From an uncultured Flavobacteriales bacterium (GTDB lineage Bacteria; Bacteroidota; Bacteroidia; Flavobacteriales_D; Sanyastnellaceae), in NCBI GenBank assembly GCA_913051865.1, contig CAJXHE010000006.1, positions 1 through 43,386 of the forward strand: a DNA stretch of 43,386 bases, in the 5' to 3' direction. The stretch's first letter is position 1; each line of letters begins with the position of its first letter. Under the pieces are notes generated by a model. That model made no database searches. It worked only from the letters and a program-made list of their open reading frames with translations, and was not told the DNA's origin. Shown piece by piece: positions 1 through 6,829 of the stretch. Both the position numbers and the translations under genes were made by a program.

Positions 1-2065
1 CGCCATCAGGGATACCCTCGCCACAAGGGCCACAGTCTCCGTCACATGTCGTTCCGTCTCCGTTTATAACACCACAGCAGTCAAGACAAGTTGTATTGTC
101 TCCACCACATACACCACACTCGTCTAATACGTTTCCGTCACAGTCACACTCGCCATCATCATTGCCGCCACAATCCACATCTCCACTATTATTATCACCA
201 TTTTGAGTGAGTGAATCAGCCCCATTTCCCCCTTGTAACTGGTCATCCCCACTGCCTCCAATTAATACGTCATTCCCCCCATTACCTTGGATCTGATCAT
301 CTCCCGATCCTCCATAAATAGAATCATTGCCACCATCAGCTCCTTGTAGCTGGTCCGCTCCACTGCCCCCTTCTATAAGGGTTGGAAATGTAATTGACCC
401 CATTTGAACTTGATCATCACCACCACAAACCACGACAACAATCGAATTTATACTCGCCTTAGGAATATAAATATCATTTTGTGATTGCCCATTGAATTCA
501 TTTTGAAGTTTCAAATTTGGATGGTCATCTGAGACCTGAATCACATCTGCTGCATTCGTGCCAAAGATGTATAAAACTCCTTCTAATACATACACTTCAC
601 CTGACGACTCCGGATCTTCACATGCACAACCGTCGTCGTATCCAGCAGGAATGCCATCTCCACCACATACGCCACACTCATCGAGTACGTTTCCTTCGCA
701 GTCACAAGGCCCCTCGATTTCCACAAAATCCAGAGTATTAGAACATCCGTTGTAGTCTGTAACAGTAACCTGATATGTGCCAGCGCAAAGATCATCTCTA
801 TCTTCTGTAGTTGACCCATCTGACCACAAATATGTATACGGAGCTTCTCCATTAGAAGCTGTTATATCGGCAACTCCATCGCAATTTGTTAAAAAAGGAT
901 GGCATTCATTGCCATTGATATCTGTATAGGCAACAATGTTAAAGGGTCCAAATGATAGGCCTACCACATCCAAAGCACATGAATGATCAACAACCCCAAA
1001 AGACTCCCAACCAACTGGCTCACCTTCGTTCGTCCAAAATTCTGGGTCGTTATGCTGGTGATACTGACCTGGATGATTAGGGCTGTCTACTATAAAGCTA
1101 TAAACAATATTATTCTGCAAGCTTGGCCAATAACCATATTCGTTGTCGTGTTCCTCATCATAAGCACCTCCTCCTATGCCTGGAATCCCTGTATACTCGA
1201 AGAAGAACTCTTGAATATATCCATTGCAGTTGCAGTTGTTTTCTCCTGTTTGCTCATCACACACCGTATTCGTAACTGTGGATGCCTCAATCTCTATGGT
1301 TGCGGGCGCATCAACAATGGTAAAAACAAACACACTAGAGTCATCAAGGGAGACCCTAGATACAGTAACTGAGTAGGTGCCCGCGCAAAGATCAACTCTT
1401 TGGCTAGCTGTTGAGCCGTCTTCCCAAAAGAATGAGAAGTCACTTAAGCTACCACTATATGAATTCTCAATATCGAACATTGCTGTTCCATTACATGAAC
1501 TGGAGCTGTTATCTGCTCCGCACCATCCGTCATTTGGCGTTGCAAGTCCTTCTATAATAAAGACGATGTCAGAAGCATTTTCATTAGGGTTTGGAATAAA
1601 GGTGCCTTCGGTGCTTATTCCGTAGCCAACATTAGTAGGGTCTGAACATGAGGTGTGTACTTCGAACTCAGCGCCATTAATTGACATATGTGAGTTGGCG
1701 CCAAAACGATCATCTGCCTCAATCAAGAATACATCATTTAATGAATGCGTCGCCGTGTAGGAAGTGTTTGAGTAGCCTTCCGTAGAAAACGCAATCGTGG
1801 CAGGGCTTGTCTGACCTACATAGCGCAAAACCAAACCGCTAATATGGTCATGATCACCATGGTCTTGACAACAATCATCATAATCACCTGTCTCTGGAGG
1901 AAGTCCACCACAATTTGTGTTAGGCGAAGTGCTTACCACTATGACATCCTCAACCCCTTCGTTCAACCCGTCATCTTTAGCATTTGCGGTTAGGGTGAAA
2001 AAAAAAGAGGCTACAAAAAGAGAGCTTATAGAAAATGAGCCCATAAATTTATTGAAAGTATTCAT
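1..2065 (-). CDS. Secreted RTX/SprB-repeat protein, partial (3' end outside window)
   Basis: An uninterrupted reading frame of 688 codons runs leftwards from an ATG at 2065 and is still open at base 1, so the C-terminus is missing. Residues 1-28 form a signal peptide ending in ANA. Two SprB-like repeats of the form W-x-D-G-S-T followed by DLCAGTY lie about 200 residues apart, near 214 and 414. Two Cys-rich blocks with the core DECGVCGGD lie near 460 and 650. Between them, about residues 565-622, are RTX-like calcium-binding repeats such as GGSGDDQIQG and GGNDVLIGGSGDDQLQGG. Such proteins are exported adhesin or surface-layer-type proteins in marine Bacteroidota. The role here is inferred; no catalytic domain was seen. 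A T9SS sorting domain or dockerin-like tail may lie outside the window. Confidence 0.85.
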   Translation of the reverse strand, partial: MNTFNKFMGSFSISSLFVASFFFTLTANAKDDGLNEGVEDVIVVSTSPNTNCGGLPPETGDYDDCCQDHGDHDHISGLVLRYVGQTSPATIAFSTEGYSNTSYTATHSLNDVFLIEADDRFGANSHMSINGAEFEVHTSCSDPTNVGYGISTEGTFIPNPNENASDIVFIIEGLATPNDGWCGADNSSSSCNGTAMFDIENSYSGSLSDFSFFWEDGSTASQRVDLCAGTYSVTVSRVSLDDSSVFVFTIVDAPATIEIEASTVTNTVCDEQTGENNCNCNGYIQEFFFEYTGIPGIGGGAYDEEHDNEYGYWPSLQNNIVYSFIVDSPNHPGQYHQHNDPEFWTNEGEPVGWESFGVVDHSCALDVVGLSFGPFNIVAYTDINGNECHPFLTNCDGVADITASNGEAPYTYLWSDGSTTEDRDDLCAGTYQVTVTDYNGCSNTLDFVEIEGPCDCEGNVLDECGVCGGDGIPAGYDDGCACEDPESSGEVYVLEGVLYIFGTNAADVIQVSDDHPNLKLQNEFNGQSQNDIYIPKASINSIVVVVCGGDDQVQMGSITFPTLIEGGSGADQLQGADGGNDSIYGGSGDDQIQGNGGNDVLIGGSGDDQLQGGNGADSLTQNGDNNSGDVDCGGNDDGECDCDGNVLDECGVCGGDNTTCLDCCGVINGDGTTCDGDCGPCGEGIPDG

Positions 2066-2142: not shown

Positions 2143-2160
2143 AAAAAAAGCATGCTTTTT
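2143..2160 (-). terminator. Possible weak terminator after the lysyl oxidase gene
   Basis: A perfect palindrome, AAAAAGCATGCTTTTT, overlaps the stop codon of the leftward gene and continues into a run of T on the minus strand. The stem is short and AT-rich and the loop would be only four bases (CATG), so termination would be weak. It could equally be a protein-binding palindrome. Confidence 0.3.
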
Positions 2161-4480
2161 AGCACACTGTTCCGAAGGCAGAAAGAACAAGAAGTACGTC
2201 TGCGACATTCACTGCGCCATCCTCATTTACATCATTTGTACAACCTGACAGGCACCCAAACTCACTTAAAACGGCGAGAATATCGTTAACCGTAACAATT
2301 AAGTCACCATCGAGGTCTCCAACACATCCGCTGGAAGTTGATTCTTCAGTACACGGATTGAAAAGAGATGTCATCGTTGTCTGAAGCATCTCATTGACAA
2401 CATCTACTGCTTGAGAAATACATACCATTCCATTTGCCGACCCTATCCAATGCACACGAAGAAGTGGATTGTAAACTGTACTTTTTGGTATAGAGGTGCC
2501 ATCGTAGCTTAAAGAAAGTACGTCTATCCCCCCAGGCACATGAGAGGGTGTTCCTGAATAAAGAAGAGGGTCGATCAAGCTTTCTGTTTGAGAGATTTGA
2601 ATGCCATCGAACTCAAGATGATATGCATAGATTCTATTGTCTGGGTTAAGAACATGAACGTCAAAATACTGTAAGTCCCAATCTACATTTGCAATGGTAA
2701 ATTCAACATTGTCAAACGGGTTTTCAACAGCCACAGATGGGAAGTCACAGTGAGCGTGAACGCCCGAGCTGTCGGGATGTGCGTGAGCGGAATTCCAGTA
2801 CTGACAATCCGCTATCGTAGCTGCATCAACAAGGTTGATTAAGCCATCAACATTAATGTCATTGCAAGCAGTCAGTGGGATATCTGATCCCAAAACACCT
2901 TCTGTATACAATTGAGCGTCTGTTAAGTCTTGGTCAAAATCTGCGTCGATGTCACCCATTAAGGTCGCACCTCCACAATCACCAGCACAGTCAAATATGG
3001 TCGTGCCATAAGGCTCCCCTGAACAATCTGTGAAAACAGGGCAATCTGTGATAATCGCGACTTCATATCCAACACTTCGGTCAATTTCAATGCAAACAAC
3101 ACCCCAATTGTTGTCGGTATTTGTTTCATAATGGCCCAACGCATCTGGTGCATAGTCCCAGTTGACACGAACCACTAAGCGATACTGTCCGTCAGGTACA
3201 TCTGTAACATCAATCCATTGGCAACTGAGTCCACTAGAGTAAATATCTCCGCAACCAGCGGAAATACCCATCGTTGAGCAACCGTAAGTAGCCGTTCCTC
3301 CATCGCTACACTCTAAGTCCATCACGCAAAACCCATTTTTAAATCCCACAGGAATGAAGCCGCCATTCATGTCAAATAAATCATACTTGGCATATCCATC
3401 ATAATGCCAGTGGTTGTGACAAGCGCCCCACTCAAATTGTGTAGACGACTCGCCAGTTTGACCTATATAGTAATCAAGGTCCCCTATATTCTTAATATGT
3501 GTTGTGAATCTAATGATTTGCCTTTCCCCAAAGCCATTTAAGCACCCCTCTTCAATATAACAGTCCGTTTCATTAACCTGCATTGTCGTTGCATATAGAG
3601 AGCTCGTAATCGCATCGGTGAGAATTAAAAGGTCTGGCCCGTTACACAATGGGTCTCCTTCATAAATACAGGTGCCATTGTCGATTTCTGCTGAAGGATT
3701 GTAGTTGCAAGCTGTTGCGTCCATGCATCCTTCAGGTGGTCCTATAAAAAAGAAATCCCAATCAAAAGCCCCACAACTCGCGTCCAAAGATGCCCAACGT
3801 ATCCACATCTGTTCTCCTCCAGTTAACAAGGCTGTAATTGCAGCCTCATCTCCACAACCACCTTCCATATCATCGTAATAAATTGTCCCCTCATTCGTGT
3901 CACCAAAGTTGTTCATGTTACAGTAGTCATAGATATAAAGTGTTGTATTACAGGCTGCTCCACAAGAGCTAAATCTGTACATACCGTTTGCTGGGGCAGT
4001 GAACGTGTACCAAAAATTATCTAACGCCTGAGTTACCGTGCCATAATCTGCATCTGTCAAAACCACCGCATCATTGCAAGTCGTCCCTGGAGCGCAGTCA
4101 AACATGACGACGTCCTGATAGTCAAAATCTCCACCCGTTGCTACTTCAACGCCATCAATGAGTAGCGTAAAATCACCATTGCCATAACCACAACAAATTC
4201 CATCGCCATAAGAATCGTCTATTACAAACTGTAAACAAGAAGGGTCTCCAGTATTGGGGATACATGTTGACGCCGTATAGGTCGTGTTTTGATCCGAATA
4301 AGGGCCCCCTGTTAAGAGTGTCCCACTTGCGTCGGACAAAGTCCATGTTGTTTCCGCAGGGTAATTGTCGGTAAGGATTTGGACAACAATTACAGACTCC
4401 CCATCCACACACTGACTTAGAGCAACGTCTATAGGCAAAAGAAAAAATACGATAATTAGGGCTGAGAAATAGTTTTTCAT
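2159..4480 (-). CDS. Secreted lysyl oxidase-domain protein with dockerin-like C-terminus
   Basis: This 773-residue protein has a signal peptide (1-22). An N-terminal region around 85-115 carries the Cys/Gly-rich motif DSYGDGICCGYGNGDF. An ACNY-type repeat lies at 251-272. A lysyl oxidase catalytic domain spans about 285-468. In that domain the copper site CHNHWH (354-359) matches the three-histidine ligand motif of animal LOX. Lys381 in GFKNGFC and Tyr414 in GDIYSSG align with the pair that forms the lysine tyrosylquinone cofactor, and CQWIDVTDVPDG (420-431) is the conserved strand that follows. Residues 508-560 and 719-773 hold dockerin-like DxDxDG helices, and the protein ends in Cys. LOX enzymes oxidatively deaminate lysine side chains or other amines; the substrate here is unknown. 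It probably acts outside the cell. The start ATG gives an intact signal peptide. Confidence 0.85.
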   Translation of the reverse strand: MKNYFSALIIVFFLLPIDVALSQCVDGESVIVVQILTDNYPAETTWTLSDASGTLLTGGPYSDQNTTYTASTCIPNTGDPSCLQFVIDDSYGDGICCGYGNGDFTLLIDGVEVATGGDFDYQDVVMFDCAPGTTCNDAVVLTDADYGTVTQALDNFWYTFTAPANGMYRFSSCGAACNTTLYIYDYCNMNNFGDTNEGTIYYDDMEGGCGDEAAITALLTGGEQMWIRWASLDASCGAFDWDFFFIGPPEGCMDATACNYNPSAEIDNGTCIYEGDPLCNGPDLLILTDAITSSLYATTMQVNETDCYIEEGCLNGFGERQIIRFTTHIKNIGDLDYYIGQTGESSTQFEWGACHNHWHYDGYAKYDLFDMNGGFIPVGFKNGFCVMDLECSDGGTATYGCSTMGISAGCGDIYSSGLSCQWIDVTDVPDGQYRLVVRVNWDYAPDALGHYETNTDNNWGVVCIEIDRSVGYEVAIITDCPVFTDCSGEPYGTTIFDCAGDCGGATLMGDIDADFDQDLTDAQLYTEGVLGSDIPLTACNDINVDGLINLVDAATIADCQYWNSAHAHPDSSGVHAHCDFPSVAVENPFDNVEFTIANVDWDLQYFDVHVLNPDNRIYAYHLEFDGIQISQTESLIDPLLYSGTPSHVPGGIDVLSLSYDGTSIPKSTVYNPLLRVHWIGSANGMVCISQAVDVVNEMLQTTMTSLFNPCTEESTSSGCVGDLDGDLIVTVNDILAVLSEFGCLSGCTNDVNEDGAVNVADVLLVLSAFGTVC

Positions 4481-4769: not shown

Positions 4770-4984
4770 TGTTTAATTGCGAAAATATGCATCGAGTTTT
4801 CATATTCGACTGATAGTCAAGCAACCAAACTCGGTAGGCCGCGTCTTTTTAATGAGGAGGATGTCGAAGTTAAAGTGTTAATCCACAATCCTTCATATTC
4901 GATTTCTCAAAACTTAATACTACAAATTATTGTTTTTATTCTGATGTGTCTTTTTGTTTTTTATATAAACCAAATCTTATTCTC

Positions 4985-6829
4985 ATGAAAAAGCTTACTA
5001 AAAACCTTTTGTTCCTCGCGGTTATTCACTGTGGAGCCACTTCACTTCAAGCTCAGTGTGACCACATCTTTACCCATGATGCTATTGCTCCGGCTGACAC
5101 ACCTCTCTCTCTTGGGTCCTCCTATACAGAAGACGGAATCACCATGACCACCACGGATTTTAACGATTCTTTTGGCCTCACTTACAATTTAGCGATGGCA
5201 AAAACCGTCATGCCTTCTGATGTCTTTGGTTCTGGCTTGTCCATGGTTCTATCAAACGCCGCCGCGACATACAACGTTTCTGCGCATTCATGTGCCAACG
5301 TCGTGAAGATAGAGTACTTTGATGGTGCAGGGATCGAAAACCTTGAGGTCAATGGTGCAGGACTGTTCATTGATGAATTCGAGTTTATGCCAAACAACAT
5401 CGCTCCAGGAGTGACCATGACGGTCACTGAGACGCTTCATTCGTCTGGAGCCTACTTCCTCGGAACCATTGAGCTGCAGGGAGTCATTAACAAAATCACC
5501 ATTGGCGGACAGCAATTTGAGGTTGATGACATCCATGTGACGAATGCCAATGTGCCTTCCTCGCCAGGGTGCTTCGGGTCTTGTGATTTGCTCTTTGATT
5601 TTGAATCCCTCCCTTTGGGAGACCGTTGGGGAGATCTTATTGCGTCCTCAACTGATCACCCCGTTCCTCCGGGAGGGACCATTTTTTCTACTGGTGACGT
5701 AGATTTTTACATAGATGAGCTTCATTCATTAAGTGGGTTTGTTGGTTTTAACTATGCAATGGCTGACAACTCCATCAGCACATTCACAGGAAGCGGCATA
5801 TCGCTTATGACAAATAATGTCACTGCAGGACTTGATCTTTCTGCCCTCGATGTAGACACTTTGTGTTTCGATTTTGTCGATATGGGGGGGTCTGAAGAAT
5901 TAACCATCAATGGCGCACAGTTCTTGACCCCTAGTGGTTATGGCGAATTGGTGACTGCCCCTGCAACACTTGGGGGGGTAAGCGTATCAGTCACCGGAAG
6001 TTCTATAGGTTTTGGATTCGTCGGAAGTGTCGTCTTAGTTGGCGATGTCACAGATCTTAAAATTGGCGGACAAGAATTTTGGATTGACAATGTCTGTATT
6101 GTTAGCAGTGAAAGCTCTGGTGGCGCTAGTGCTGTTGGAGTTGCATCTGCGGTTTACTGCGAGATGGATTGTAATTATGGGGTCGACAATGGTTCGCAGG
6201 CCTTTGGTAATCAATGGGGAAATGTGATTCCCGGACCGCAATCATGGCAAGCAAACCCTGGTGACTTTATCTTTAATGAGGATGGAATTGATGTATTTAT
6301 AGATGAGCTCAATGGGTTCTTATACCCTGTGACTTATGGCAGTATTGGCATCGTTCATTCCCCTCTCGCCTCTTTCGGAGTCGACCAGGTGATGAACACA
6401 AACAACACAACAGCTCTGTTTGATTTGAGTGCCATTGTCACAGATTCTGTATGCATCGAGTGGCTTGACCTTGGGGGACATGAGGTGCTAGAAATCAATG
6501 GCCATCTGGTAAGTTCACCTGATGGGTATGGCCAGCTTCTGGGCCTGCCATCTTCAATTGGCGGGACATCTGTTCAAATAACGGGAAACCCAGTGATAAC
6601 CGTTGTTGGTGGTGCTCCTACTGTAACAGGATATCAAGGAAAACTTGTGATTGTCGGCAATGTTGACGCGCTTCGTTTTGGGGGGCAAGAATTTTGGATT
6701 GACAATCTATGTATAAGCGAAGCACCAACTGTTTCTGCAGCTTGTGTTGCTGATTTAGACGAAGACGGACTTGTCGGTGTCTCAGACCTCCTTATTGTGT
6801 TGGGTGTGTTTGGAATACCTTGCCAATAG
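4985..6829 (+). CDS. Secreted three-module repeat protein with dockerin-like tail
   Basis: This 614-residue protein of unrecognised function starts at the ATG before MKKLTKNLLFL, which gives a clean signal peptide ending in LQAQ at 24; an upstream in-frame ATG at 4946 would bury the signal. Three related modules of about 160-180 residues follow at 26-185, 197-372 and 396-577. Each ends in a variant of GGQEFWIDN; modules 2 and 3 also share GDRWGDL/GNQWGNV, DFYIDEL/DVFIDEL and a SGYGEL/DGYGQL turn. Module 1 is the most divergent. Residues 587-612 are a dockerin-like segment, DLDEDGLVGVSDLLIVLGVF, ending close to a final Cys. The modules look like beta-rich binding or structural domains. It is probably secreted and is transcribed away from the lysyl oxidase gene. 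Confidence 0.85.
   Translation: MKKLTKNLLFLAVIHCGATSLQAQCDHIFTHDAIAPADTPLSLGSSYTEDGITMTTTDFNDSFGLTYNLAMAKTVMPSDVFGSGLSMVLSNAAATYNVSAHSCANVVKIEYFDGAGIENLEVNGAGLFIDEFEFMPNNIAPGVTMTVTETLHSSGAYFLGTIELQGVINKITIGGQQFEVDDIHVTNANVPSSPGCFGSCDLLFDFESLPLGDRWGDLIASSTDHPVPPGGTIFSTGDVDFYIDELHSLSGFVGFNYAMADNSISTFTGSGISLMTNNVTAGLDLSALDVDTLCFDFVDMGGSEELTINGAQFLTPSGYGELVTAPATLGGVSVSVTGSSIGFGFVGSVVLVGDVTDLKIGGQEFWIDNVCIVSSESSGGASAVGVASAVYCEMDCNYGVDNGSQAFGNQWGNVIPGPQSWQANPGDFIFNEDGIDVFIDELNGFLYPVTYGSIGIVHSPLASFGVDQVMNTNNTTALFDLSAIVTDSVCIEWLDLGGHEVLEINGHLVSSPDGYGQLLGLPSSIGGTSVQITGNPVITVVGGAPTVTGYQGKLVIVGNVDALRFGGQEFWIDNLCISEAPTVSAACVADLDEDGLVGVSDLLIVLGVFGIPCQ

Follow-up and report, generated by a model that had tools for sequence, protein, structure and literature searches.

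Lysyl oxidases (LOXs) were reported from Bacteroidetes in 2015 by Grau-Bove et al. (PMC4448552), and in that survey all but three prokaryotic LOXs consisted of the LOX domain alone. HTU-LOX, from the archaeon Haloterrigena turkmenica, is active and BAPN-sensitive in vitro (PMC6452851). We found no experiment on a Bacteroidota LOX in the literature; no role has been assigned to the bacterial enzymes since they became known in 2015, and a family-conserved LOX with docking modules offers a concrete target. Here, we describe such a gene in a 43,386-nucleotide stretch of DNA (hereafter, the window) from an uncultured Flavobacteriales bacterium. The open reading frame at 2159-4480 (minus strand) was confirmed, with an ATG start and a stop codon at 2159-2161, and has the following features:

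2159..4480, minus strand: multidomain secreted lysyl oxidase, 773 aa (open reading frame; full-length homologues)
4415..4480, minus strand: putative Sec signal peptide, residues 1-22 (MKNYFSALIIVFFLLPIDVALS; inspection of the sequence)
4094..4402, minus strand: N-terminal beta-sandwich, residues 27-129, CBM60-like at best (weak; predicted structure)
3746..4093, minus strand: second beta-sandwich, residues 130-245, PPC/collagen-binding-domain-like fold (predicted structure)
3668..3730, minus strand: ACNY-type repeat, single copy, residues 251-271 (GCMDATACNYNPSAEIDNGTC; sequence, with columns conserved in a 31-relative alignment)
3041..3646, minus strand: lysyl oxidase catalytic domain, residues 279-480 (PF01186; LOXL2 structure 5ze3)
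3404..3418, minus strand: copper site His355-x-His357-x-His359 (alignment to LOXL2 H626/H628/H630)
3338..3340, minus strand: Lys381, precursor lysine of the LTQ cofactor (LOXL2 K653; alignment, conservation in 49 domains)
3239..3241, minus strand: Tyr414, LTQ precursor tyrosine (LOXL2 Y689; alignment, conservation in 49 domains)
2813..2956, minus strand: internal dockerin-like EF-hand pair, residues 509-556 (PF00404, weak in this protein)
2333..2725, minus strand: cohesin-fold domain, residues 586-716 (predicted structure)
2162..2326, minus strand: GC-type-dockerin-like C-terminal tail, residues 719-773, ending FGTVC (NF041540; PDB dockerins)

The initial annotation had read this gene as a bacterial lysyl oxidase with complete copper and cofactor residues, and a LOX-family HMM search and a structure prediction compared with LOXL2 bear this out. 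The catalytic domain matches PF01186 (Lysyl_oxidase) at E 1.4e-32, its 113.5 bits exceeding the cut-off of 20.4. Human LOXL2 is found in the PDB by sequence (E 7.7e-24), and its match strengthens to 2e-32 when the profile is built from 49 bacterial LOX domains. For the LOX-domain model (pLDDT 84), LOXL2 (5ze3) is the sole strong structural match, with 192 residues aligned at an rmsd of 2.8 (Z 20.1) and a TM of 0.80 normalised to the query length; the runner-up reaches Z 8.2. The CHNHWH motif begins at residue 354, Lys381 lies within GFKNGFC, and Tyr414 is the first residue of YSSGLSCQWIDVTDVPDG; the three histidines, Lys381 and Tyr414 are all invariant across the 49 bacterial domains. Eight of the 10 cysteines of the LOXL2 domain (listed in PMC9180022) are aligned in the window protein, and these aligned positions are likewise invariant. 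Judged by sequence comparison, the family match and the alignment of catalytic residues are far beyond chance. Apart from Lys381, the only invariant lysine of the LOX domain is Lys330 (FTTHIKNIG). The initial annotation had also proposed that Lys381 and Tyr414 should lie close together in a predicted fold, which is not a valid criterion because the crystal structure of the LOXL2 precursor shows the corresponding residues, K653 and Y689, separated by 16.6 A (PMC9694262).

Outside the catalytic domain, the full-length model (mean pLDDT 70) contains two N-terminal beta-sandwiches before the LOX domain, followed by the EF-hand pair, a further beta-sandwich and the tail. N-termini are hydrophobic in most complete homologues. 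The first beta-sandwich (pLDDT about 85) has vCBM60 as its best match at Z 8.2, near background, and the second matches ColG s3b with Z 9.1 over 100 residues, overlapping a GBD_T9SS_assoc (PF23759) hit that lies under the Pfam cut-off (15.6 bits). We dropped collagen binding by residues 130-245, since it over-reads a common fold. No SRCR domain was found in a Pfam search of the 773-aa protein, and Pfam, the homologues and the predicted structure together support the view of a multidomain, presumably secreted protein with a non-animal architecture. The ACNY repeat (ACNYNP at residue 257) and the two dockerin-like stretches noticed initially are present, at 509-556 and 719-773; the cohesin-fold domain that sits between the latter two had been overlooked. 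Longer LOX relatives carry extra PKD, GEVED, F5/8, Big_12 or MopE-type repeats. The LOX proteins L075 and L081, which have GC-type tails, contain PKD domains and repeats that Pfam names Cu-binding MopE.

The internal EF-hand pair scores 12.5 bits against PF00404 (Dockerin_1), a weak match below the cut-off of 22.9. The same family matches in 18 of 25 relatives (best E 4.3e-5), exceeding the cut-off in L075 (33 bits). For the domain at 586-716 (pLDDT about 88), cohesins take the first 19 places among the structural matches (Z 10.3-11.2). Pfam searches returned no PF00963 (cohesin) match in the window protein, its relatives or the whole genome, and a profile of the domain found no cohesin by sequence in the PDB; because the fold matches without any sequence-family match, we term this domain cohesin-like only. 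The dockerin-like and cohesin-like pair follows the LOX domain in all 31 aligned relatives, including Saprospiraceae and Chitinophagales, the cohesin fold having been computed for the model of the window protein and the relatives compared through sequence columns. When the genome of origin was searched with the LOX cohesin-like profile, only its two LOX genes were found; with no PF00963 match in this genome either, the search for a separate scaffoldin gave no candidate.

The C-terminal tail aligns to NCBIfam NF041540 over model positions 1-67 of 67 (23.9 bits, below the cut-off of 29), and its profile matches PDB dockerins at 3.7e-9. The type A sorting domain of the type IX secretion system (T9SS; TIGR04183/Por_Secre_tail) is absent from the window protein. 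It occurs above the cut-off at the C-terminus of relatives L023, L047, L059 and L080, and below it (19.8 bits, cut-off 23) in L002, the other LOX encoded by this genome. L002 (499-2913, G000:C35; 804 aa) has modules as in the window LOX and this sub-threshold type A end. The GC-type-dockerin-like tail, which is also carried by L083-L112, and the T9SS type A domain are thus alternative C-terminal ends among LOX homologues. Two changes of tail type are needed to explain the LOX-domain tree, and its strongly supported branches still allow a single origin. Genome-wide, there are 46 tail-profile matches versus 58 T9SS type A matches; nearly all tail matches that were inspected lie at the extreme C-terminus. 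The closest same-strand pair of the two is 1351 bp apart, so apparently no protein bears both. The tail is present in all 25 genomes of the source family (1 to 69 copies each), and 15 genomes from other families of the order have between 0 and 2 copies each. The genome also encodes SprA, a T9SS component. It is conceivable, but on balance unlikely, that the GC-type tail is a second sorting or anchoring signal of the family's outer-membrane route, interchangeable with T9SS type A, and that the LOX builds a covalent surface layer held by dockerin-cohesin contacts.

LOX genes are conserved throughout the source family. From 121 relatives found in one scan, we kept 80, each at least 61% identical over the LOX domain; these come from Bacteroidota records, with the exception of one labelled Euryarchaeota. 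The latter (L043), a MAG sequence whose LOX is 72% identical to that of the window, probably belongs to a misbinned Bacteroidota contig. The gene occurs in 14 of 14 genomes of the same genus, 11 of 11 others of the family and 5 of 15 others of the order (the five including one partial match). Comparison of neighbours across genomes revealed no conserved gene pointing to a LOX substrate, and a conserved operon partner was rejected, the conserved neighbours being on the opposite strand and resembling housekeeping genes. Directly downstream on the same strand (window 2-2065) lies a truncated surface-type protein with RTX calcium-binding repeats, an SprB-like repeat and 0.6% lysine, which is conserved in the closest relatives only. 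On the other side (window 4946-6829), a divergently transcribed secreted protein has a single C-terminal dockerin-like repeat and shares the FGxxC type end of the window LOX.

Lysine makes up 0.6% of the window LOX and of neighbouring surface proteins, compared with about 4.5-12% in most other sampled proteins of the window. Considering the best-scoring loci only, median lysine content in the genome of origin is lower in GC-tail than in T9SS-tail proteins (0.72% vs 1.57%, p 0.009), whereas among other genomes the T9SS proteins of those with and without LOX do not differ (2.61% vs 2.86%, p 0.94). Because the latter comparison shows no LOX-linked difference, lysine avoidance was dropped as a mark of LOX activity.

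Taken together, these data make it probable that the gene encodes an active secreted amine oxidase of the LOX family, held in place by its docking modules. This reading is supported by the Pfam and PDB matches, the LOXL2 fold, the five invariant residues, the eight aligned cysteines and the family-wide conservation of LOX, and by the BAPN-sensitive amine oxidase activity of the archaeal enzyme (PMC6452851). The cohesin fold, the dockerin pair, the above-cut-off T9SS domains of relatives and SprA also speak for it. Sec would carry the protein into the periplasm, and the C-terminal tail would take it to the cell surface or retain it there. The LOX domain would generate its own LTQ out of Lys381 and Tyr414, with His355, His357 and His359 as copper ligands, and would then oxidise primary amines, including lysine side chains, to aldehydes, giving off NH3 and H2O2. 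Together, the flanking beta-sandwiches and the dockerin-cohesin pair may anchor the enzyme in an assembly at the surface or in a matrix; the most probable contact is that of dockerin with cohesin, in the same LOX molecule or between two of them. The likeliest role would be covalent cross-linking or maturation of an extracellular protein layer, with deamination of environmental amines as the runner-up; taken alone, the cross-linking role is tentative and falls somewhat short of probable. Counting against this reading are the Gly and Phe at the counterparts of LOXL2 H623 and H652, the lack of a conserved substrate-pointing neighbour, the lysine depletion of secreted proteins that does not track LOX in other genomes and the cryptic state of HTU-LOX in its host (PMC6452851).

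An active enzyme might instead serve nutrition or competition and have no part in cross-linking; its extracellular targets would then be small amines or antibiotics that bear amines. In favour of this, HTU-LOX is relaxed in its specificity, accepting aminoglycosides and polymyxin as well as small amines (PMC6452851). We regard this reading as rather doubtful, as docking modules and sorting tails point to an enzyme kept in place more than to one that diffuses freely, and the presence of LOX in every genome of the family fits a structural role somewhat better, even though neither argument is decisive.

The 46 tail matches, in a genome whose cohesin-like domain is confined to the two LOX genes, could also mean that this module captures proteins with GC-type-dockerin-like tails and delivers them to the LOX as substrates. 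This is quite improbable: such tails are absent from the LOX-bearing genomes G028, G029, G033 and G039, and the dockerin and cohesin-like modules occur together in 31 of 31 aligned LOXs. For these two reasons, the adjacent internal dockerin is more likely to be the module's partner than are the genome-wide tails.

In LOXL2, H623 and H652 are each required for full LTQ yield (PMC9694262). The absence of these animal-type histidines would suit a catalytically dead LOX-fold domain retained as a binding module, which is nevertheless very unlikely given that the 49 domains show no variation in the copper ligands, the LTQ pair or the aligned cysteines, that bacterial, fungal and amoebozoan LOXs generally do without the first histidine (the H623 position), and that its mutation was reported to have no significant effect on copper binding or oxidation (PMC4448552).

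The predicted active, docked LOX can be compared with several known systems. Because a Bacteroidetes LOX was reported in 2015 and in vitro activity is known for an archaeal one, the enzyme itself is not new in kind and is a further member of the known LOX family. It shares phylum, family and catalytic residues with the Bacteroidetes LOXs (PMC4448552), and differs in being multidomain, with a dockerin, a cohesin-like module and a sorting tail. HTU-LOX is likewise a prokaryotic LOX, but it is archaeal, and the accessible part of its description mentions no comparable docking modules (PMC6452851). Searches of the open-access literature for LOX combined with dockerin, cohesin or T9SS, and for GC-type dockerins, returned nothing relevant; within that literature, a dockerin/cohesin-like LOX architecture with exchangeable tails appears to be undescribed. 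Clostridial cohesin-dockerin systems, including the C. perfringens cohesin-like module 2jh2, have the cohesin fold (Z 10.7-11.2) in common with the window protein, as well as repeats like those of type I dockerins; in the window protein, however, the cohesin-like module has no sequence-family match, no scaffoldin was detected with PF00963 and a single LOX protein contains the two modules. The tail aligns with the GC-type dockerin of NF041540 over the whole model, albeit below its cut-off, and is unlike it in taking the position of a T9SS sorting domain in LOX homologues, a natural experiment for spotting a possible second sorting signal in Bacteroidota. Human LOXL2 (PDB 5ZE3) shares with the window protein the fold, the HxHxH copper site, the LTQ lysine and tyrosine, eight cysteines and the CQWxDxTDV motif. 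Identity is about 30%, H623 and H652 are replaced, and LOXL2 has SRCR domains where the window protein has CBM/PPC-like, ACNY, dockerin and cohesin-like modules. If a secreted LOX of this kind, equipped with docking modules, works as proposed, bacteria would have a counterpart to the cross-linking of the animal matrix.
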